From contig CAMWME010000002.1 in NCBI GenBank assembly GCA_947175325.1, forward strand, positions 62,001-126,000: DNA of 64,000 nt, in the 5' to 3' direction. The DNA is from an uncultured Clostridia bacterium. Its GTDB lineage: Bacteria; Bacillota; Clostridia; Christensenellales; Borkfalkiaceae. Shown here piece after piece: positions 33,918-64,000 of this stretch; within the stretch, counting starts at the first letter, position 1; every line of letters starts with the position of its first letter. A program made the translations under genes and the position numbers. The notes below the pieces were generated by a model. That model did not search any database. It was not told the origin of the DNA and saw nothing but the letters and a program-made list of their open reading frames with translations.

Positions 33918-35548
33918 AACTGTACCTCCTCTCTGAGTTCGAATAAGAAATAATCATCGGGAATAATATGAATTTCCTTACCTCTCAATTTTTCTCTTTG
34001 TTCTGTCGTCAATAACACGTTTTTGGATATGTATAGCACTTTAATCTTCGCAAGTTCGTCCACGTCATTCAAAAGAGAATCCGATTCTTCATCGCTCATA
34101 ATCATACGGTACCCGCTACCGTCGATTTTTACGCCGTGTTCTAATTGTATCATTTCGGCAATATGTTCCAAAAGCGCGTCGGACAAAAATTCCTCGTCAC
34201 GGGCAACAAAATCTGTACGGTAATATTTAAGATTTGCGGGGGTACCATCCGAATATGTACTGCCGTCTGCTCTTTTACCCGTTATTACGGTTTTAATGCG
34301 CGGATAGGCAATCTCTGAGCAAATACTGTTTTCATTGTTAGTACATAAAATAAATCTTCTGTTGCCGCCGTAATCTTTATTGGCTTCTAATACAGCTTGA
34401 GCTGTTGTAGCTGAACCTGCAAAAAAATCAAGAATAACGGAATCGTTAGACGTTGCTTGAAAAACAATTTCTTCAATCATTTGAATTGGTTTAACCGTTT
34501 CAAATTCATGTTCTTTTGTACCCAAGGTATTTGACAATTCAGCTTTTGCAGATTCGGCAGTTCCATATTGATTTGCATTAAATAATGCCCAAAAAGGTTT
34601 AATATTATCTTGAGTCTCATCGGTAGGCCGGATTTTCCTATAAACCTTTTCACCTTGAACAAACAAATCTCCGCGTTCAATGAATTCATTAACCGTTTCC
34701 TTACCGATTTTCCATTGATTTCCGGTTTTAGGCATAACTCCTAAAATATCAAAAATCATACTTCCTCTGCCTCTTATGCCGCTTGCGCCCATCTGTCCTA
34801 TTTCTTCTTGCCGATATCGTCCTTTATCATCCGACAGCGGATATTCTTTCAAACCGATAGTGTGGCAGTTAAATTCCGCCCTTTCATCGAAATTTTTATA
34901 AACTAAAATATATTCTATTCTAGGCTGCAACATTCTTCTTGCTGTTTTTGTGTTTTGACACTTTGTCCTCTTTTCCCAGCCTATCGTGGTTAAAAACCGA
35001 GATTCGCCAAAAATAGAATCGCATAACAGTCTCATTACCGACAATTCCTTATCATCGATTGAAATAAAGATATAGCCCTTAGGCGATAAAAGTTTTTTAG
35101 CTATTAATAAACGTTTTTCTATAAATGAAGCCCACTTGCTATGCTTATAACTGTCCTCGTCTCCGACTATATAATCATCGTAAATAAAACTATTACCGGT
35201 ATTATACGGCGGGTCTATATATATTAAATCTATTGAGCCTTTATGCGTTTTTTCAAGAAGATATAAGCTATGAAGATTATCACCTTCAAGTAAGAAATTG
35301 TAAGGTTTTTCCGGCGCGGCAGAAATCTCCCGTTTTTTTACTTCGGTAAAAACGGGAATGTGCGTCCGCATTTGAACGTCAACCTTTTCTTCATGTTCTT
35401 CCCACACAAGACCGTATTTTTTTGAATTAAGCTCGTTTTCAATCTCGCCCAAAGCTATAAGCGTTTCATCATCATTCTTGTGTTCTTCTTTTATTTTATC
35501 CAAAAACTCAAGCATGCGCTTGCGCTTTATTTGTGAAAGATTAGGCAT
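33914..35548 (-). CDS. Type III restriction-modification system DNA methyltransferase (Mod)
   Basis: LIYIDPPYNTGNSFIYDD (DPPY), ILDFFAGSATTAQAVLEAN (FxGxG-type); start trimmed to MPNLSQIKRKRML; 4-bp overlap with Res. Confidence 0.93.
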   Translation of the reverse strand: MPNLSQIKRKRMLEFLDKIKEEHKNDDETLIALGEIENELNSKKYGLVWEEHEEKVDVQMRTHIPVFTEVKKREISAAPEKPYNFLLEGDNLHSLYLLEKTHKGSIDLIYIDPPYNTGNSFIYDDYIVGDEDSYKHSKWASFIEKRLLIAKKLLSPKGYIFISIDDKELSVMRLLCDSIFGESRFLTTIGWEKRTKCQNTKTARRMLQPRIEYILVYKNFDERAEFNCHTIGLKEYPLSDDKGRYRQEEIGQMGASGIRGRGSMIFDILGVMPKTGNQWKIGKETVNEFIERGDLFVQGEKVYRKIRPTDETQDNIKPFWALFNANQYGTAESAKAELSNTLGTKEHEFETVKPIQMIEEIVFQATSNDSVILDFFAGSATTAQAVLEANKDYGGNRRFILCTNNENSICSEIAYPRIKTVITGKRADGSTYSDGTPANLKYYRTDFVARDEEFLSDALLEHIAEMIQLEHGVKIDGSGYRMIMSDEESDSLLNDVDELAKIKVLYISKNVLLTTEQREKLRGKEIHIIPDDYFLFELREEVQL

Positions 35549-35561
35549 TAGCTTTCTCCTT

Positions 35562-35587
35562 AATATAATTCTCCAATATAATTCTCC
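35562..35587. repeat. Two tandem 13-bp copies of aatataattctcc directly upstream of mod
   Basis: aatataattctcc at 35562-35574 and 35575-35587. Confidence 0.85.
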
Positions 35588-35664
35588 AAAAGTTTGAGAC
35601 AAATGGATTGCCGCCCTAAATTACATAATTCCTATGCACATTATCCATAGTCATCATTTTTAAT

Positions 35665-36300
35665 TTATCCATTGTCTTGTACCTCAGATTCATATTCTTC
35701 AATAAAGTTTTCACTAAATTGGAATTCTTTCCCTAATTCAAATTTAGATTGTTTCATCAAAGATAATAAATTAGTACTTAATTTATCGCTCTCTTTTATT
35801 AAATTGTCAAAATGTTTATTTATAACATCAATTTTCGGATTTGCAGATGAAATATAGTCTTCTAGTTTATATAGATTTTTATAATATTCGAAAGCTTGAT
35901 TATTAACAAAATCATTAAATAATTTGTTTTCGAAAAATAATCCTTTGTTATAACAAATCAAGTTTGATTTTAACTTTAATAAGCATGTTCTTGATGACTT
36001 AATTATTCTTGATATTATTTGTCTATTCATACTATTGTCGGAATTCAGCTCTGTCAACAAAAAATTACCAATTTCAAAACTACTATTTTCTAAAATGTTT
36101 CTTTGAAGACTCTTTTTCTCTATAAAATACCCTATCCAAGATATTACCACTACAAATACAGCACTACTTAAAATAGCTAACGAGATATCTTTTAAAATAT
36201 CATTTCTAGTAAATTGTAAAAATACAGAAATAAAATAGGTTATTAAAGAGATAATGCTTGTAAGCGCTGATACAATAAGTGCTATTTTTTGCTGTTTCAT
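35665..36300 (-). CDS. Two-TM protein of unknown function inside the RM cassette
   Basis: 211 aa ORF, N-terminal two hydrophobic helices and long charged helical C-terminus; AT-rich. Confidence 0.75.
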   Translation of the reverse strand: MKQQKIALIVSALTSIISLITYFISVFLQFTRNDILKDISLAILSSAVFVVVISWIGYFIEKKSLQRNILENSSFEIGNFLLTELNSDNSMNRQIISRIIKSSRTCLLKLKSNLICYNKGLFFENKLFNDFVNNQAFEYYKNLYKLEDYISSANPKIDVINKHFDNLIKESDKLSTNLLSLMKQSKFELGKEFQFSENFIEEYESEVQDNG

Positions 36301-54266: not shown

Positions 54267-55127
54267 TCAAGCGTTTGCGGCTTTGTAGTCTTCTACCGCC
54301 TTTTTAGCGGCGTCCGAAGCGTTGACGGTGGAGCTGCCGAAGTTTGAGAAGTTGTAAACGACCTTCAAGCCATCGCTATGTGTATAGCCCTCGTATTCAT
54401 ATTCATAGAGGTATTCAGTAGAATAGCTAACGACGTAGCCGTCCTTAACGGAAACGGAAACCGCAGTTTCAACACCGTACTGCCACAAGGTTGCGGTATA
54501 AACGCCGTCCGCATAGGTGAAGGATTCGTAAAGGTCCGTTAAGGCTGCGTTTGCCGTGCCGTCCTTATCCGTTGCATAGGTTGAGTTTAATACGTCGATT
54601 GTACTACCGTCGATAGTATCAAGCGTAGAAACAGACCACTCGGCATCTTCTTCTTGGGTGCTGTAATATGCCGAGTAATAAGTTTCACCGTCTTTTGCGA
54701 TATAGCTTTCAATATCGTATTCTTGATTTTTATATTCCTTTTGCCAATCTTCGTCATCGGGTACGCCCGTAGCTACGACTTTAACTTTCGTCTTGCCGTA
54801 GGTATTACCGTCATAGTAAGCCGTGCCGTTGCGTGTATCAATTACGCTCAAATTTATTTCACCTAATTCATCGTCGGTGCCGCTTGCCTTATACGTGTCT
54901 TCCCTATATAATTTAACGGTGTAACTTTCTGCTGCGAGGGTAGCTTCGAATGCTTTCGCCCAGCCCTCTGCGTCTACTTGCACTCCTTTTACTACGGTGC
55001 TAAGGTCGTCACCGTCGTTGCCCCCGTTTTCGCTGCCGCCGCCGTTATCGTTGCAAGCGGTAAAGCCTATGATACTCGTTGCGGCAACTACGCCGACGAG
55101 TAGCGTTGCCAAAAACTTTTTGTTCAT
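54267..55127 (-). CDS. Putative lipoprotein (family member 2)
   Basis: MNKKFLATLLVGVVAATSIIGFTACNDN lipobox; start trimmed. Confidence 0.8.
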   Translation of the reverse strand: MNKKFLATLLVGVVAATSIIGFTACNDNGGGSENGGNDGDDLSTVVKGVQVDAEGWAKAFEATLAAESYTVKLYREDTYKASGTDDELGEINLSVIDTRNGTAYYDGNTYGKTKVKVVATGVPDDEDWQKEYKNQEYDIESYIAKDGETYYSAYYSTQEEDAEWSVSTLDTIDGSTIDVLNSTYATDKDGTANAALTDLYESFTYADGVYTATLWQYGVETAVSVSVKDGYVVSYSTEYLYEYEYEGYTHSDGLKVVYNFSNFGSSTVNASDAAKKAVEDYKAANA

Positions 55128-55206
55128 AATTTTATTTCCTACGGTTAATTTGAGATTATTATACATTAATAAATAACCGTTTGGCAAATATTTTTTATCA
55201 AATGAT

Positions 55207-55312: not shown

Positions 55313-56548
55313 TTACGCTTGCACGACGTAAATTAATTTTACGGTTACGCCGTTGCCGTAGTTGACACTCGTCGTCAACTTATTTTCCGATAAGGTAAAC
55401 GACTGAGGCGTGGCTGATCCTTGCATTGGTTCTCCGCCCATAGTTACGGGCGTGAGAGTGATTACGTTATCATTCTCGGTATAAGTTCCTGCGACGGTAT
55501 AATCTTGTTCTTGAACTGTCTGAGGCATAGTGAAGCCCCCGTTGTTGTTGAAAATTATCGTGGAGCCGTTATACCCCGCTTCCATCTCGGGCTTCATAGC
55601 TTCCATTTGCTTAATTTGTTCTTCGGATACGTTCGCGCCGTATTCGAAAACTATGCTATCGTATGCGAAAGTTTTGCCGGCTACTGCAGAATCTGCGGGT
55701 TCTTTGGGTGCATTTGCGGTTTTGTAATCCTCAACCGCTTTTTTAGCCGCGTCCGAAGGAGTAACGGTGGTGCTGCCGAAGTTCGAGAAGTTGTAAACGA
55801 GTTTATACTCTTCGCTCTCCTTGCCGTCCTCGTCCTCTTCTTCATAGAGACCGTCCGTCGAATAGCCCACTACGTAGCCGTCCTTAACGGAAACGGAAAC
55901 CTTAACTTCCGAATCGTACTGCCACAAGGTTGCGTTGTAAACGCCTTCTTCATAAGTGAAAGAGTCGTAGAGTTTATCCAAGGTTGAGGTTGTGCCCTTC
56001 GCCTCGGTTGCATAGTCCGTACCTAATACGTTGATTGCACTGCCGCCGATAGAATCAATCGTTTCAACCGTCCACTCGGCGTTTTCCTCTTTGGTGCTGT
56101 AATATGCGCTGTAATAAACGTCGCCGTCTTTAACGATATAGTCCTCAAACTCGTATTCACTGTTTTTGTATTTTTTTTGATACCGTTCGTCGTCGGGTAC
56201 GCCCGTAGCCACGGTTTTAACTTTCGTCGTGCCGTAGGTATTACCGTCGTAGTACGCCAAGCCGGTGCGTGTTTCGGTTACGCTCAAATCTATTTCGCCT
56301 ATTTCTTCGAGAGTGCCTTTTGCTTTATAGGTACTTTCCATATACGCTTTTATGGTGTAGCTTTTTGCTGCGAGGGTAGTTTCGAAAGCCTTTGCCCAGC
56401 CTTCCTTGTCTACTTGTACGCCCGCTACGACGGTGTCGGGGATGTTTTCTTCGCCGCCGTTATCACCGTTGTTACAAGCGGTAAGACCGATTATGCCCGT
56501 TGACAAAACTGCACTTGCAATTAAAGTTGCTATTAACTTCTTCTTCAT
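55313..56548 (-). CDS. Putative lipoprotein (family member 3) with extra C-terminal beta-rich domain
   Basis: MKKKLIATLIASAVLSTGIIGLTACNNG lipobox; body parallels 54267 lipoprotein, then additional AGKTFAYDSIVFEYGANVSEEQI...YVVQA. Confidence 0.8.
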   Translation of the reverse strand: MKKKLIATLIASAVLSTGIIGLTACNNGDNGGEENIPDTVVAGVQVDKEGWAKAFETTLAAKSYTIKAYMESTYKAKGTLEEIGEIDLSVTETRTGLAYYDGNTYGTTKVKTVATGVPDDERYQKKYKNSEYEFEDYIVKDGDVYYSAYYSTKEENAEWTVETIDSIGGSAINVLGTDYATEAKGTTSTLDKLYDSFTYEEGVYNATLWQYDSEVKVSVSVKDGYVVGYSTDGLYEEEDEDGKESEEYKLVYNFSNFGSTTVTPSDAAKKAVEDYKTANAPKEPADSAVAGKTFAYDSIVFEYGANVSEEQIKQMEAMKPEMEAGYNGSTIIFNNNGGFTMPQTVQEQDYTVAGTYTENDNVITLTPVTMGGEPMQGSATPQSFTLSENKLTTSVNYGNGVTVKLIYVVQA

Positions 56549-56585
56549 TTTTACTCCTTTTTTCAAAGGGCTATAAATGCGGACT

Positions 56586-56623
56586 GTGCTGTGGCGTGCC
56601 ACAGCACAGAGGGACGTCCCTCT
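56586..56623. repeat. Two abutting perfect palindromes
   Basis: GTGCTGTGGC gt GCCACAGCAC followed by AGAGGGACGTCCCTCT. Confidence 0.85.
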
Positions 56624-57500: not shown

Positions 57501-57587
57501 GCCCGAGTGGTGGAATAGGCAGACGCAAGGGACTTAAAATCCCTCGGTAGAAATACCGTGCCGGTTCAAGTCCGGCCTCGGGCACCA
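57501..57587 (+). tRNA. tRNA-Leu (anticodon UAA)
   Basis: gcccgag...agggacTTAAaatccct...ggttcaagtcc...ctcgggcacca; long variable arm, encoded CCA. Confidence 0.95.
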
Positions 57588-57594
57588 TTCAAGA

Positions 57595-57633
57595 AAAATA
57601 CGAACCGCTCAGAAAAACGGTTCGTATTTTTTT
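57595..57633 (+). terminator. Terminator of tRNA-Leu
   Basis: aaatacgaaccg ctcagaaaaa cggttcgtattttttt. Confidence 0.9.
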
Positions 57634-57813
57634 GTTGCAAATAATTATTTCGGGGTAAGATTTAAGTGGTAATTTCGCTATTTAAATTCTAATCTCGCAT
57701 TGTTGCGTTAAATGATTAGTGGCAGATTATAGTATTCTTTTGTTTTTATAGGATAATTTCTTATTATTTGCAAGTTAATTCTAATGGTCTTTCTTGCGAG
57801 GATCTCATACAAT

Positions 57814-58581
57814 TTAATTTCTATTGCAATAATTTTCTAAAATACGAATTTGATTTTTCTGCAAATCCAACCTATCTAATTCCATTGTAAGCCATTGACA
57901 ATTAGAAGATAATAACTCTTCCAACAATATTACTTCCTCTAATTCATTAGGACTTGAAAATGCTAAATGATTAGTTTTCTCATCTTCACTTAAATAGAGA
58001 TGACTATGAACGCATTTTTGACTCTCTAATAGATGTTTGTAGACTGATAATAATGCTTTGTCATTTTTAGTAGCAATTTTCGCATGCCCTATATCAAAGC
58101 TAAAAAACACATTATCAATTAGTAGAGCTTCTTTTAAAAAACTTATATTTGTAGTTAATCCCTTTATAAGGTTTTCAACACAAATTTTTATATTTAATGA
58201 TTTAGCAAATGAAGCTATTTCAGTTAATTTCTTAATGCCAACTTCAAAAATACTATTTTCTAAATATCCGACATGTAGTATAGCGTATTCTCCCCCCATA
58301 TTATGAATAAACTCCAAATAACTTTTAATAATCCTTACAGATAAATCACAAATTGTGCTATTGGGATGCGCTATTTCAATATACGAATGCGGTAAGTGAT
58401 ATCGTATTTGTAAATTGTTTTTTTTAATATCCGAAATAATTTGATTAGTGCGAATCTCACTAAGAGTGGGAGGAATAAAGTCAAAGTCCCATTCTATAGC
58501 CTTATATTTATTTTTTAATGCTGTTAATATCACATCATCTATATATTTACAGCATAAAGATGAATAAGCAAAAACTCTCAT
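57814..58581 (-). CDS. TIM-barrel sugar phosphate isomerase/endonuclease-IV-like protein
   Basis: YAILHVGYL, ICVENLIKG, FFSFDIGHAKIA, HSHLYLSED, WLTMELD pattern. Confidence 0.75.
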   Translation of the reverse strand: MRVFAYSSLCCKYIDDVILTALKNKYKAIEWDFDFIPPTLSEIRTNQIISDIKKNNLQIRYHLPHSYIEIAHPNSTICDLSVRIIKSYLEFIHNMGGEYAILHVGYLENSIFEVGIKKLTEIASFAKSLNIKICVENLIKGLTTNISFLKEALLIDNVFFSFDIGHAKIATKNDKALLSVYKHLLESQKCVHSHLYLSEDEKTNHLAFSSPNELEEVILLEELLSSNCQWLTMELDRLDLQKNQIRILENYCNRN

Positions 58582-59198
58582 AAAAGTTTTCTCGCAAACA
58601 ATTTTGCTTTACCATGATAATGTTTAGGACCATGTAGTTCATCCACTTTAATATATTCTGCATATTTTAGAATTTCAAAATCATCAAAAAATTTTTTCAA
58701 TTCGTTTTTCTTAAAATAGTGCTTAATAAATAAAGAACACTCGCTCGCATTATCTAAATCTTTTTTAAACCCAGGGTCATCTTCAGTAAAAACCATTATA
58801 TATACATACCCACCAGGTTTAATAATGCGCTTAATTTCATTGATTGTTTTACAAATGTAACCAAACTCCATATGGTCTAAAGATGTCAATGCAACTAAAA
58901 ACCCTATATCCGACAATTTCCCCGACGCGGATAAAAAATCATTATTAATAACAGTCAAAGGTATTCCACTTTCTTGTGCTCTAAGTTCTATTTTTTTTGC
59001 GCCAATCTTACTTGGTTCAATTGCTGTAACATTAAAACCAAGTGAAGCTAAAAACAAAGAATTACGTCCTTCCCCGGCACCCAAATCAACAGCAGAACAA
59101 GGATTAACCTTATACTCAATGAGACATTCCTCCATACCACCTGAATGTTCTTCACTAAAATATGAATATTTTCTTGAGTAAAAATCATCAAAATTCAT
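58578..59198 (-). CDS. Class I SAM-dependent methyltransferase (TehB-like)
   Basis: CSAVDLGAGEGRNSLFLASLGFNVTAIEPS, KPGGYVYIMVF; 4-bp overlaps on both sides. Confidence 0.87.
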   Translation of the reverse strand: MNFDDFYSRKYSYFSEEHSGGMEECLIEYKVNPCSAVDLGAGEGRNSLFLASLGFNVTAIEPSKIGAKKIELRAQESGIPLTVINNDFLSASGKLSDIGFLVALTSLDHMEFGYICKTINEIKRIIKPGGYVYIMVFTEDDPGFKKDLDNASECSLFIKHYFKKNELKKFFDDFEILKYAEYIKVDELHGPKHYHGKAKLFARKLL

Positions 59199-59701
59199 TT
59201 TTTCAAATCCTCGTATTGGCGAATAAGTTCATTAACATAATACCAAGCAGAACTAGATGAATCATGAGTGGCAATAAATTTTTTCATTAATAAATACTCT
59301 TCATTTTCCATCAATCCACCGACTATTTCAGGTATATTTTCCTTAATTCCTCTCATCTTATCAGCATAACAAACTCCACCATCCGGAAGAGCTGGCATAC
59401 CATACACAATTTTATCAACTCCACATTCAATAGCTGCACCTAGGCACATAATACAAGGTTCAAGTGTTGTATAGAGTACAAGTGGTCTTTCACAAGTGAA
59501 AACTTTTCTCTTTGCCTCCAATAAAACAAATAGCTCACCATGAGCGATTACACCGTTTTCTCGTACATTTGCTGTAACACCTCTGCCAATTTCTTTATCG
59601 TTAGCAACAAGAATAGTAGCTATAGGTAGTTCGCCATATTTTTTCATGCCTTCTTCTGCAAGCTTAATAGCTTCATTCATCCAAAATAAATCTTTATCCA
59701 T
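59195..59701 (-). CDS. Cytidine/guanine deaminase-like zinc-dependent nucleoside deaminase
   Basis: AHGELFVLLEA (HxE) and TLEPCIMCLGAAIECGVDKIVYG (PCxxC). Confidence 0.9.
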   Translation of the reverse strand: MDKDLFWMNEAIKLAEEGMKKYGELPIATILVANDKEIGRGVTANVRENGVIAHGELFVLLEAKRKVFTCERPLVLYTTLEPCIMCLGAAIECGVDKIVYGMPALPDGGVCYADKMRGIKENIPEIVGGLMENEEYLLMKKFIATHDSSSSAWYYVNELIRQYEDLKK

Positions 59702-59735
59702 TTTTTACACCTTCTATGTTGTTTTTATTTTTTTG

Positions 59736-61130
59736 CTACGATTTGTTTATTCGAGTTTTTATAGCTTCAATAATCCATTTACCGACAGTGCCTACGGCAT
59801 TAACACCTAAAGGTATAAAAATCGCAGTTACCCACCATCTCATGGCTTCAGTTAAAGGTTGTGTCGCAATGATAACTCCAAACAATATTATAGCGGCTGA
59901 TGAAACAAAAATAGAAAAAACCCTTGATAATATTAACGATATTTTATATCGTTTTAATTCAACTTTATTTGTAGCAATTAGCTCGTTAACTTTTGCGTCA
60001 TTTTCCTCTTTTTCTTTCTCAAGAATATTTTTTTGCTCCTCGAGCTCAATAAAATCATATTTCTCTAATGCACGCTCAAGGATCAGTAAAGCCTCTACGG
60101 TAGACCATGTCGTAACAGTGAATAAACTACTAAAGTTTAAATACCAAAATCCTTCTGCGGTCTGATTGTGTAAATATGCGTCCATAATATGCTTTAAATC
60201 AGAAGCATTGACTTCTAAACTTATAAGCGCATTAGCCATATCAAAGGGAGTGTTGTTGTTATACGCAGGAGCATAGTTACGAATATTTTCTACATGTAGT
60301 GTAATGTTACATGTAGTAAACAAATCCGGACATGCCAAAAGCAATTCCTTAAGCCCCTTTCTTGTTTCATCAACCATTTCTGCTTTCATTAATGTTAAGC
60401 CATTAATTATTCGGCAAAATGTTGAAGCGACTTTTGTATATTGGGTTTTTAACCCATCAAGTTCGGATCTGTATTTGCTTATAAAATATTCTGCTTGATT
60501 ATTAAAAAAACTAATGGTTTTTGCAATTAGCGAGCGATCTCTATCATTATCTTCAGGATAGCCTTTCGGATTTATTAGACCAAGCACCGCATAAAAAGTT
60601 GTAAATATATATTCCATTCTACTACTTTCGTTTTTATTAGGATCTACTTCTATCTTCTTTTGTGTCGGCTTAGCTTCCCAAAAAGCATATCCATCCTTTT
60701 CAGCGCAACTATGGCGTAGCCAGTCTTCACCACGTTTTATGGCATCCTTTAACTTTTCTGAATCCGCATAATTTCCTACAGCAGCTAACTTTAGTACATA
60801 CGTACAATGTCCTGTCGCAATTGCCGAAGGTTCTTTGTCCATTGAAATAGCCGTATTCCCTTTAGGTAAGACACTCCAGTACCCATCCTGCGCTTGTGCA
60901 TCTAAAAGGAACTTAATCATCGGTTCTACTTTTTTATAAATAGTTAAAGGTAGCGTCTTTGAAGTAAGAAAAAACTCAAGGGCTTCGGCTGTTACCCAAA
61001 TGCCACTAACACTCCCTTGTTCGCTATGATCTTGAAATTTGATTCCGCCATTGGAATTTTGCGACCGGATCAAATAATCAGCACCTCTACGAATTGACTT
61101 TTCGACAGTTTCTCTTCCGTATCTTTCCAT
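59736..61130 (-). CDS. Prenyltransferase/terpene-cyclase-like alpha/alpha toroid with C-terminal 2 TM anchor
   Basis: Repeats such as ADYLIRSQNSNGGI...GIWVTAEALEF, TAEGFWYLNFSSLFTVTTWSTVEALLIL; C-terminal hydrophobic pair. Confidence 0.72.
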   Translation of the reverse strand: MERYGRETVEKSIRRGADYLIRSQNSNGGIKFQDHSEQGSVSGIWVTAEALEFFLTSKTLPLTIYKKVEPMIKFLLDAQAQDGYWSVLPKGNTAISMDKEPSAIATGHCTYVLKLAAVGNYADSEKLKDAIKRGEDWLRHSCAEKDGYAFWEAKPTQKKIEVDPNKNESSRMEYIFTTFYAVLGLINPKGYPEDNDRDRSLIAKTISFFNNQAEYFISKYRSELDGLKTQYTKVASTFCRIINGLTLMKAEMVDETRKGLKELLLACPDLFTTCNITLHVENIRNYAPAYNNNTPFDMANALISLEVNASDLKHIMDAYLHNQTAEGFWYLNFSSLFTVTTWSTVEALLILERALEKYDFIELEEQKNILEKEKEENDAKVNELIATNKVELKRYKISLILSRVFSIFVSSAAIILFGVIIATQPLTEAMRWWVTAIFIPLGVNAVGTVGKWIIEAIKTRINKS

Positions 61131-61143
61131 ATGATTTCCCTAT

Positions 61144-61704
61144 TTACTGTTTAATAATATCCATAAACATTTCTTGCATTTTAAAGTCTTCAAACTCCCC
61201 CGAGAATAAAGTAGTGACAGTTGAAGCGTTTCTTCTTGTTATCCCTCGAATATTCATACAGAGATGCTTTGCTTCCAAATATATTGCAATTCCTTTAGGA
61301 TTTAAAGACTCTTGCATATCTTCCAAAATTTCTTTCGCTAACCGCTCTTGTAATTGCAAACATTTAGCATGCTTATCAACAATTCTTGCTAACTTACTTA
61401 TGCCGATAACTTCCTTGCCTGGAATATATGCAATATGCGCTTTACCGATAAACGGCATCAAATGATGCTCACACATTGACGAAAAATCTATGTCGCGAAC
61501 AAGAACTATTCCACCGTAATTGTTAGAATCGAAGACGGTATATTTCATATTTGCACGTTCTGGATTTAATAGTTCATCACACATATCGGCAACCCGTCTT
61601 GGCGTATCCACTAATCCTTCACGTTCCGGATTTTCACCTATAGCTATAAGGAATTCTCGCGATAGGAATTTAATTCGTTCTTTATCTATCATAAGTAATT
61701 TCAC
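61144..61704 (-). CDS. folE: GTP cyclohydrolase I
   Basis: GLVDTPRRVADMCDELL, DIDFSSMCEHHLMPFIGKAHIAYIPG, GISKLARIVD, AKHLCMNIRGITRRNASTVT. Confidence 0.95.
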   Translation of the reverse strand: MKLLMIDKERIKFLSREFLIAIGENPEREGLVDTPRRVADMCDELLNPERANMKYTVFDSNNYGGIVLVRDIDFSSMCEHHLMPFIGKAHIAYIPGKEVIGISKLARIVDKHAKCLQLQERLAKEILEDMQESLNPKGIAIYLEAKHLCMNIRGITRRNASTVTTLFSGEFEDFKMQEMFMDIIKQ

Positions 61705-61743
61705 TCCTTTGTGTTTTTCTTGTAAATGCTTTTTTGAAGTTTT

Positions 61744-63039
61744 TTATTTTTTTATAGCTCCACATATCGATATAATAGACGAAACGAAACCAACCAAGGC
61801 AACTATTGTGCTTATAATATTCCCAGCAGAATAATTTCCTTTTGATATTAATCCAACCAGAAAATATACTCCAACGCCCAATATACATATTAGTGTTAAA
61901 ACAGTTGTAATTATAAATCGCTTTTTATTGCTTTTAGGATTTGATATAACATCAGTAAATTTAACATATTTTTTTTGCACTTCATTAAAAGCTATTATAA
62001 CTTCTGCAGTTACCCACGTTGATTCTTCGGTTGTAACGCCGTCCTCTTTTTCTTTTTTAATTATCCACTCACCACGATCCCTTTGCTGAGTTTCAAAATG
62101 TCTAATTAACTTAATTATTTGGTTTTTAAACTGATACTCTTCAGAAGACACCAAAGTAATTAAAGCGATATACGGCAAATTATGTACGAAAGGATTCTTC
62201 TTATAATGATAATCTTTCGAGTCAATTAATCTCTTTATTACATACCAATTTTTTTTGATATATTTTAATATTTCATTTTTAAATTCTCTATCTGCTTCGG
62301 TAAGATATTTTGATTTTACCAAACACATGTATCCGTACATTAAATTTGCAATATCATTTTCCAAAATCAAATTATCATTTAAGGCTTTCTTTTGATTGTA
62401 GCTATAATTATTTTTACTGATAATTGTTTTTATAAAGTTTCTCACATAAGCACAAGCATTTCTAACAACGGTACTATTACTTGCATCTTTCCCATCAGCT
62501 TTGTAACCTTTTAAAACATAGTAAATAAATAGTGGTGAACTTGATTTTTCTATTGATTTAACTGAATCGCACCATCCACAATCAACTTGTTGATTTTTAT
62601 CTAACCAATAAATTCCTTTCTCTATACAAGTTTTAATCCTTTTCTCGATATCGCTTATACTAAATTCACCGTTAAGGCAAGTGAATTTTTCGATTGTAGA
62701 ACCAGTTAAAACATTATCATAAAAAAGTTTTAACGCATAAATTGTATGACCAGTTGACACTGTTGACGAACCACTTCCGTCTGCAGTTTCCCAGTAACCA
62801 CATTCATCGTCAACATCAATAAATTTGCTCAACAAAAACTGAACAGATTTAAATAATTTATCTAAAACGGTTAAATTTAAATCAATCGCATCAGTCAACA
62901 AGAGTGCCTCTAAAGACTCAGAAGTTGTCCATATGCCACTTTCATTTTTAAAGGCTTCGCCTCTCGGCATACCGCCATCTTCGTTTTGTATTCCTAATAT
63001 ATATGTTGTCCCTTTTCTAATAAGTTCGGAATAATTCAT
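61744..63039 (-). CDS. Prenyltransferase/terpene-cyclase-like alpha/alpha toroid with C-terminal 2 TM anchor (second copy)
   Basis: GTTYILGIQNEDGGMPRGEAFKNESGIWTTSESLEALL, DECGYWETADGSGSSTVSTGHTIYAL, ESTWVTAEVIIAF; C-terminal hydrophobic pair. Confidence 0.72.
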   Translation of the reverse strand: MNYSELIRKGTTYILGIQNEDGGMPRGEAFKNESGIWTTSESLEALLLTDAIDLNLTVLDKLFKSVQFLLSKFIDVDDECGYWETADGSGSSTVSTGHTIYALKLFYDNVLTGSTIEKFTCLNGEFSISDIEKRIKTCIEKGIYWLDKNQQVDCGWCDSVKSIEKSSSPLFIYYVLKGYKADGKDASNSTVVRNACAYVRNFIKTIISKNNYSYNQKKALNDNLILENDIANLMYGYMCLVKSKYLTEADREFKNEILKYIKKNWYVIKRLIDSKDYHYKKNPFVHNLPYIALITLVSSEEYQFKNQIIKLIRHFETQQRDRGEWIIKKEKEDGVTTEESTWVTAEVIIAFNEVQKKYVKFTDVISNPKSNKKRFIITTVLTLICILGVGVYFLVGLISKGNYSAGNIISTIVALVGFVSSIISICGAIKK

Positions 63040-63048
63040 ATTATCTTC

Positions 63049-63645
63049 TCAATTAAGTTCATTTTTTATATGATTAGCAAGTATACCCATTTCAAATTGT
63101 AATTCTTCAATAGTTTTAGGCTCAATTACTATCTTGGGAATTTTTACGGTACTAAAGTATTCTTGATATCTTTGGGATATTGCTGTTAATATTTGAGCAT
63201 TTTCTTCATCTTCAATATAATTTTTACGCTTTTTTATTCTTTCAACCGCAATTACTGGATCCACATCACAAAAAATATATAAATTAGGTTCAGGTAGGCT
63301 GTTATAAATAGAATCCATTATTTTCCGAGTTTGAAATGGAACATTATCAATCTCATTCAAGATTTGGTAACAAATAGAATATCTATCAGATAGTAAAACT
63401 TGTGGATGATAAGAAAATATTCTTTGATAATATTTTGCAAATTCAAACGCCATAGCAATACGTTTAATTTCAGTAGTTTTATCTTTTTCTAAATATTCCC
63501 AACCGCTATTCTTTAAAGTTTTTTTAGAAGAAAAAGGACATTTTGCAACTTTTACTTCTATTTCGGGAAGCAATATATTTTTTAATATATTTATAGATGT
63601 CGTTTTTCCTGCGCCATCAATCCCACAAAATGCAATATGGATCAT
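63049..63645 (-). CDS. Thymidylate kinase-like nucleotide kinase
   Basis: MIHIAFCGIDGAGKTTSINIL (P-loop), LLSDRYSICYQ (DRY/DRH-type motif). Confidence 0.85.
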   Translation of the reverse strand: MIHIAFCGIDGAGKTTSINILKNILLPEIEVKVAKCPFSSKKTLKNSGWEYLEKDKTTEIKRIAMAFEFAKYYQRIFSYHPQVLLSDRYSICYQILNEIDNVPFQTRKIMDSIYNSLPEPNLYIFCDVDPVIAVERIKKRKNYIEDEENAQILTAISQRYQEYFSTVKIPKIVIEPKTIEELQFEMGILANHIKNELN

Positions 63646-64000
63646 TATTTTCTCCTAAAATCGATACACAAAACTAAAATTTATTAAATTATAACATAAT
63701 TTGATATTTTGTGCAATTAAAACTTTATGGTTGGAAATCTTTAAATTTTTAACCTATATAGCAATCCTAAAAAATAACTAGTTTGAATATTAAAAAGTAT
63801 TCTAAACCGTTATAAACCCACTAATGATTGTTAGACGTGTGCCTATCTTCAGATGAAGCAAGCGTAAGTTTGCGCTTGTCACAGAGACATCTGCACGCTA
63901 AATCTAAAAAATTGAACAACCGAAAAGGAAGAAAAATAAATCACAAAACCAATGTTAAATTGAAAGATTTGGCAGATGGCAGATTTATGGTCGCTTGTCT

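Follow-up and report, generated by a model that had tools for sequence, protein, structure and literature searches.

GTP cyclohydrolase I (FolE) turns GTP into dihydroneopterin triphosphate. FolE also opens the preQ0/7-deazaguanine pathways, which start from GTP (PMC13329287), and nucleobase chemistry of this type features in bacteria-phage conflict, including phage DNA modification, QueC-family type IV cyclic-oligonucleotide-based antiphage signalling systems (CBASS) and Qat. The pseudoiodinine (psd) operon combines a GTP cyclohydrolase, a RibD-like deaminase, methyltransferases and a WD40 repeat protein and is proposed to work like the operon for toxoflavin (tox) (PMC9911603). Here, we analyzed a 64,000-nucleotide stretch (the window; contig CAMWME010000002.1, positions 62,001 to 126,000) of an uncultured Clostridia bacterium represented by a metagenome-assembled genome (MAG) of 1.54 Mb in 25 contigs that is 97% complete. 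Window positions 57814-63645 hold seven intact open reading frames (ORFs), all on the minus strand, which belong together as a conserved unit that also occurs in another genome. Their transcription order is TMK-like kinase, TORA, FolE, TORB, deaminase, methyltransferase and TIM barrel, where TORA and TORB are alpha/alpha-toroid proteins ending in two transmembrane (2TM) helices. Read cautiously, the operon represents an undescribed conserved pathway in two diverged copies, with components that are catalytically intact by sequence or structurally definable.

Comparison with the tox and psd operons reveals a shared combination of GTP cyclohydrolase, deaminase, S-adenosylmethionine (SAM) methyltransferase(s) and repeat-fold protein (PMC9911603). 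In contrast to the GTP cyclohydrolase II, WD40 and sulphatase-modifying-factor proteins of those operons, the window operon encodes GTP cyclohydrolase I, toroid-2TM proteins, an isomerase-type TIM barrel and a TMK-like kinase; a methyltransferase is present, but the type I cyclohydrolase and TadA-like deaminase place it outside the toxoflavin type. The transmembrane effectors of CBASS and the SLATT 2TM proteins resemble the operon in proposed layout only, where enzymes make a small molecule and a protein with a C-terminal transmembrane hairpin responds. The operon lacks a CD-NTase, a cyclase and a SLATT domain (NCBIfam SLATT_1 at E = 0.23, no Pfam SLATT match), and a pteridine-like metabolite would take the place of the cyclic nucleotide. 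An earlier note on this DNA had recognized no named system, and we likewise find no match to the gene combination in PADLOC, Pfam, NCBIfam, PHROGs or the literature searched, which also contained no pterin or FolE-toroid immune system. The operon belongs to no system in PADLOC-DB 2.0, where similarities are partial and involve the methyltransferase part of mad2 (3.5e-12), PDC-M51B (1.1e-7) and VakA (1.3e-4).

Counted from the TIM barrel end, the junctions measure -4, -4, +34, +13, +39 and +9 bp, and all seven ORFs are open at the coordinates of Table 1. Several features noted earlier hold up, namely the tight packing of seven minus-strand genes with two 4-bp overlaps, the domain identities (Pfam and NCBIfam), the AT-richness of the region (GC fraction 0.295-0.35 in the operon versus 0.44-0.50 in most of the window) and the coupling of the genes into one set. 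The arrangement is more than chance, as the order FolE-toroid-deaminase-methyltransferase recurs in a second genome (G1104, locus L053) from another family of the same order, found with a profile of the two toroids (7e-88). This second copy reads FolE, toroid-2TM, deaminase, methyltransferase, GT2 glycosyltransferase, TIM barrel and TMK-like kinase; relative to the window, TORA is absent, GT2 is added and the kinase stands last instead of first. Independent assortment of the genes, named in the earlier note as evidence that would speak against a coupled set, is not seen for the four core genes, which stay together; the periphery (TORA, GT2, kinase position) does vary.

Identities between the copies are 78% for FolE, 46% for the toroid, 82% for the deaminase, 67% for the methyltransferase, 32% for the TIM barrel and 35% for the kinase. 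In FolE, deaminase and methyltransferase, fourfold-degenerate sites at conserved residues are 25-43% identical between the copies, and second codon positions are 88-92% identical. Because these proteins are 67-82% identical while their fourfold sites have diverged to this extent, the substitution pattern indicates strong purifying selection on all three. These three enzymes are better conserved than the other shared proteins (toroid, TIM barrel, kinase), suggesting a chemical core that stays fixed within a variable periphery.

Table 1 Features of the operon and its setting (window coordinates)
Feature	Position	Strand	Remarks
TMK-like P-loop nucleotide kinase, 198 aa	63049..63645	-	first gene; PF02223 3.9e-14
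TORA, alpha/alpha-toroid protein with two C-terminal transmembrane helices, 431 aa	61744..63039	-	TORB paralogue, absent from second copy
FolE, GTP cyclohydrolase I, 182 aa from likely ATG	61144..61692	-	PF01227 1.1e-62
TORB, alpha/alpha toroid, long helical segment and C-terminal transmembrane hairpin, 464 aa	59736..61130	-	toroid common to both copies
TadA-like nucleoside/base deaminase, 168 aa	59195..59701	-	PF00383 (dCMP_cyt_deam_1) 1.5e-18; HGE and PCIMC zinc motifs
TehB-like class I SAM methyltransferase, 206 aa	58578..59198	-	PF03848 2.5e-21
Xylose-isomerase-like TIM barrel, 255 aa	57814..58581	-	PF01261 6.7e-13
tRNA-Leu(taa)	57501..57587	+	edge of normal-GC sequence; probable boundary of island
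AT-rich island holding the operon	57600..64000	.	runs past window to about C2:131100 (window-equivalent about 69100)

Inspection of FolE identifies a member of the GTP cyclohydrolase I family (PF01227, 211 bits versus a cut-off of 27) with zinc and catalytic residues in both copies, the residues kept being Cys78, His80, His81, Gln119, Glu120, His147 and Cys149 (186-aa numbering). The ORF list placed the start at a GTG at 61704; the ATG at 61692 is more likely, because AAGGAG lies ~10 nt upstream and the second-copy FolE begins MIDKE at the matching position. The complete active site makes the GTP-derived product suggested in the earlier note plausible. The genome carries a separate folC-folE-folP-folBK cluster (contig C11, L008) whose FolE is 46% identical to that of the operon, so that the window operon is not the folate operon and the reported lack of folate context is strengthened. 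The 7-deazaguanine (preQ0) pathway needs QueD/PTPS; no PF01242 match occurs in the 97%-complete source genome, versus 9 of 14 control genomes, and QueD, QueE, QueC and TGT-like genes are found in neither operon copy. The deazapurine option raised earlier was accordingly not sustained. Given a dedicated folate FolE elsewhere and no PTPS/QueD, folate supply and 7-deazaguanine or biopterin routes are unlikely for the operon.

These results bear on two housekeeping explanations. In one, the set would produce a modified base or nucleoside for the cell's own RNA or DNA, or put it in place there, a view consistent with the entry of FolE into the deazaguanine pathway and with the frequent action of TadA-like deaminases and SAM methyltransferases on RNA as families. 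We consider it very unlikely, given the missing Que, TGT and PTPS genes, the absence of a nucleic-acid-binding domain from the gene set and the place of membrane proteins in the core. The other, an accessory folate/pterin or nucleotide-salvage locus with a spare FolE, tRNA deaminase and dTMP kinase on an island, draws on the housekeeping members that each enzyme's family has. It is hardly credible for a genome with its own folate FolE and another TadA-like deaminase, and for a FolE, deaminase and methyltransferase that a second family keeps in conserved form alongside a membrane toroid.

Each remaining enzyme, like FolE, appears from its sequence to keep all catalytic residues checked. The deaminase retains HGE and PCxxC in both copies, is 29% identical to the only other homologue found in the source genome (TadA-like) and matches RibD weakly (2.7e-5). 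The methyltransferase keeps the SAM motif DxGAGEG, and the kinase P-loop GIDGAGKTT and SDRY are kept in the second copy. The TIM barrel qualifies as a xylose-isomerase-like sugar isomerase/epimerase with a predicted metal site, where Glu136-Asp163-His194-Glu234 reproduces the pattern of that family and is invariant in three homologues; its nearest solved chain is MJ1311 (3wqo, 1.4e-15).

TORA and TORB are paralogues (26% identical) that share SGIW-T-E and TGH motifs and a C-terminal transmembrane hairpin each. Their sequence similarity to squalene-cyclase repeats is weak and under the Pfam cut-off (6e-5 and 5e-4), and the toroid fold assigned in the earlier note gains its support from AlphaFold and Foldseek. 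The TORB model (three sequences) reached a predicted template modelling score (pTM) of 0.72, with a predicted local distance difference test (pLDDT) of 70-93 for most of residues 4-390 except loops. With this model as query, Foldseek matches at E 5e-6 to 5e-4 (probability 1.00, target TM-score up to 0.63) were complement TED domains, alpha-2-macroglobulin, type II terpene cyclases and AprG, and viral proteins gave nothing at E <0.001. Despite the alpha/alpha toroid and squalene-cyclase-like repeats shared with type II terpene cyclases and complement TED, the proteins differ from both. The conserved DxDD of type II terpene cyclases is missing, with none in TORB or the second-copy toroid and one non-conserved DVDD in TORA, so that the similarity is one of fold and not of membership; the GCGEQ thioester motif is in none of the toroid proteins examined; and a C-terminal transmembrane hairpin is added. 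Invariant positions (n = 58) fall almost entirely in the toroid (56, versus 2 in the membrane tail). We infer that the toroid is ligand-binding rather than catalytic, and its conserved W-x-T-x-E motifs suggest a ligand pocket.

The setting of the operon differs in composition from the surrounding chromosome. GC content of the island is about 30-35%, and most of the window has 44-50%. The 3' end of the tRNA-Leu is not repeated (att repeat) within the 20 kb searched, and no integrase was found. A tRNA-Leu integration hotspot was considered and not borne out, the upp-tRNA-Leu arrangement being kept in 0 of 13 same-genus loci. Just beyond the right end of the window, a divergent plus-strand gene past the operon (C2:126229-131022; L006:7230-12023) encodes a protein of 1597 aa that starts with a sacsin-type ATPase and ends with a superfamily 1 (SF1) helicase. 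It matches PADLOC TmtA (Tiamat, 5.5e-38) and MkoA (Mokosh, 6.6e-36), full length to neither, and is likely a defence gene mixing features of the two. Any likeness of the locus to Tiamat or Mokosh belongs to this separate gene on the other strand, and the flanks of the second copy, as far as they are readable, show no such gene. The second copy is also AT-rich (32-36% GC versus 43-51% in its flanks), and it lies 24 bp after an SLFN_AlbA_2/HATPase_c_4/HTH gene; a large serine recombinase comes about 2 kb behind it. Directly after its kinase (L053:6966-7388) lies a 140-aa protein with one N-terminal transmembrane helix and no family match, which may be part of that copy.

Together, the observations are tentatively best explained by a self-contained, acquired small-molecule pathway with its own membrane receptor or effector, most likely for phage defence or another host conflict. 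Horizontal acquisition of a foreign-looking operon is part of this explanation, and our guarded confidence applies to the whole jointly; mobility is supported by the AT-richness of both copies and by the position of one beside a tRNA and of the other near a serine recombinase. In the proposed sequence of events, FolE would convert GTP to dihydroneopterin triphosphate or its formamidopyrimidine intermediate, after which the TadA/RibD-like deaminase would remove an exocyclic amino group (lumazine-type chemistry), the methyltransferase would N- or O-methylate the ring, the TIM barrel would rearrange the sugar-derived side chain and the TMK-like kinase would set the phosphate state of that side chain. 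GT2 in the second copy may add a sugar. This order of steps after FolE (deamination, methylation, side-chain isomerisation, phosphorylation and optional glycosylation) is modelled on the toxoflavin and pseudoiodinine operons. The product would remain in the cell and bind the toroid cavity, and binding would switch the C-terminal transmembrane hairpin, which in the simplest case would be an effector that disrupts or depolarises the membrane. An intracellular product is favoured because no exporter is encoded in or beside either copy, and retention in the cell would in turn make the toroid-2TM protein the natural receptor or effector. A role in phage defence or other host conflict is suggested by context, namely the AT-rich island, the Tiamat-like neighbour and the sporadic distribution.

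The same absence of an exporter, together with that of a self-resistance gene in or beside either copy, argues against a biosynthetic cluster for a secreted bioactive, which would make a GTP-derived, deaminated, methylated and sometimes glycosylated heterocycle by toxoflavin/pseudoiodinine-like logic with GTP cyclohydrolase I, the toroids serving as enzyme scaffolds or aids to membrane passage. The gene content of the psd operon (PMC9911603), the GT2 of the second copy and a distant kinase relative in a thymidylate-synthase-like/PqqD-like/ABC-transporter cluster on a Geobacillus plasmid are consistent with such a compound; the use of GTP cyclohydrolase II rather than I by the tox and psd operons and the membership of the membrane toroid in the conserved core are not, and we regard this explanation as rather unlikely. 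A further step down in probability is direct poisoning of phage replication by a modified nucleotide, as with the 3'-deoxy-3',4'-didehydro nucleoside triphosphates (ddhNTPs) of viperin; the operon kinase would then carry the nucleotide to the triphosphate, and the toroids would act in membrane anchoring or regulation. As in viperin loci with an adjacent nucleotide kinase, a TMK-like kinase stands beside a nucleotide-altering enzyme, the FolE and kinase families handle nucleotides, a defence-like gene is a neighbour and the kinase resembles the PADLOC PDC-M51B and VakA models in both copies. Those resemblances are weak (1e-7 and 1e-4), however, the operon lacks a radical-SAM enzyme, the toroid-2TM proteins would be unneeded and FolE rearranges the ribose of GTP such that its product is no longer a normal nucleotide, all of which make direct poisoning improbable.

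Several points weigh against the intracellular pathway with a membrane receptor that we favour. The chemistry after FolE is deduced from fold families that accept many substrates, and full instances number two only. The membrane tail of TORB is modelled with low confidence (pLDDT <50) and matches no known effector domain in domain library scans. Neither operon contains a known defence gene, the Tiamat-like gene may be carried on the island independently of the operon and the neighbour of the second copy differs (the SLFN_AlbA_2/HATPase_c_4 protein). The more specific idea of a new class of immune or conflict system, where the cavity of a toroid protein detects a pteridine-type signal from a dedicated GTP cyclohydrolase I pathway and the C-terminal transmembrane hairpin of that protein opens or disrupts the membrane, is doubtful. 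If true, bacterial immunity or competition would have a further currency in pterin/GTP-cyclohydrolase chemistry, next to cyclic nucleotides, ADP-ribose derivatives and deazaguanines, and service as a membrane sensor or effector would be a new role for the toroid fold.

The operon is sporadic in distribution. Single-sequence searches of 301, 398, 388, 398 and 243 related genomes (overlapping samples with differing queries, drawn from the family for 301, the phylum for 398 and the class for 388 and 243) returned no convincing member. As a single TORB sequence matches the second-copy toroid at about 1e-109, these negatives reflect rarity in the sampled genomes and not low sensitivity. Low-sensitivity collection scans of viral contigs (toroids, FolE, kinase, TIM barrel and deaminase), plasmids and phages contained no member, and two contig scans with exact short peptide patterns, also of low sensitivity, recovered only a distant, already known TIM barrel. 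Candidates set aside on inspection were two matches to the toroids, namely a secreted toroid with SLH-like repeats (G658) and an unrelated membrane protein (G288), and a TIM barrel in a peptide/adenylation-domain-type cluster (G827); the two viral FolE matches inspected (L014 and L015) proved to be QueD-QueE-FolE phage operons.

Two distant relatives occur in other gene settings. A TIM-barrel protein of a Gracilibacteraceae MAG (JAAYQK010000098.1; L027/L031) is 28% identical to that of the operon over its full length and adjoins what appear to be two nucleotidyltransferase/HEPN-like pairs; the contig ends before further operon genes. The kinase relative on Geobacillus plasmid pGeo12a (NZ_CP020031.1 27309-39922; L029) lies in a cluster of two thymidylate-synthase-like genes, a QueA-like gene, two PqqD, NUDIX, TMK-like kinase, CYTH and an ABC transporter; the plasmid is conjugative, and the cluster has the appearance of an undescribed pathway to a nucleoside-derived metabolite.

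Apart from the tRNA, no riboswitch or other Rfam family is present at either operon copy. A TATAAT-type promoter-like match lies at 63715-63688, ~40-70 nt upstream of the kinase gene, where the count of promoter-like matches is no higher than in shuffles. About 5 kb past the island on the same contig, two tandem C5-cytosine DNA methyltransferases are followed by two proteins with HNH-like C-terminal motifs (L006:17615-19706, L007:23-2355), probably a restriction-modification locus. Within the window, a second AT-rich stretch (34001-36000) shows 34.5% GC and a strong negative GC skew amid sequence of otherwise 41-51% GC, and positions 54267-55187 and 55313-56602 encode two neighbouring lipoprotein-like paralogues whose N-terminal domains are alike; the longer protein carries an extra C-terminal domain.

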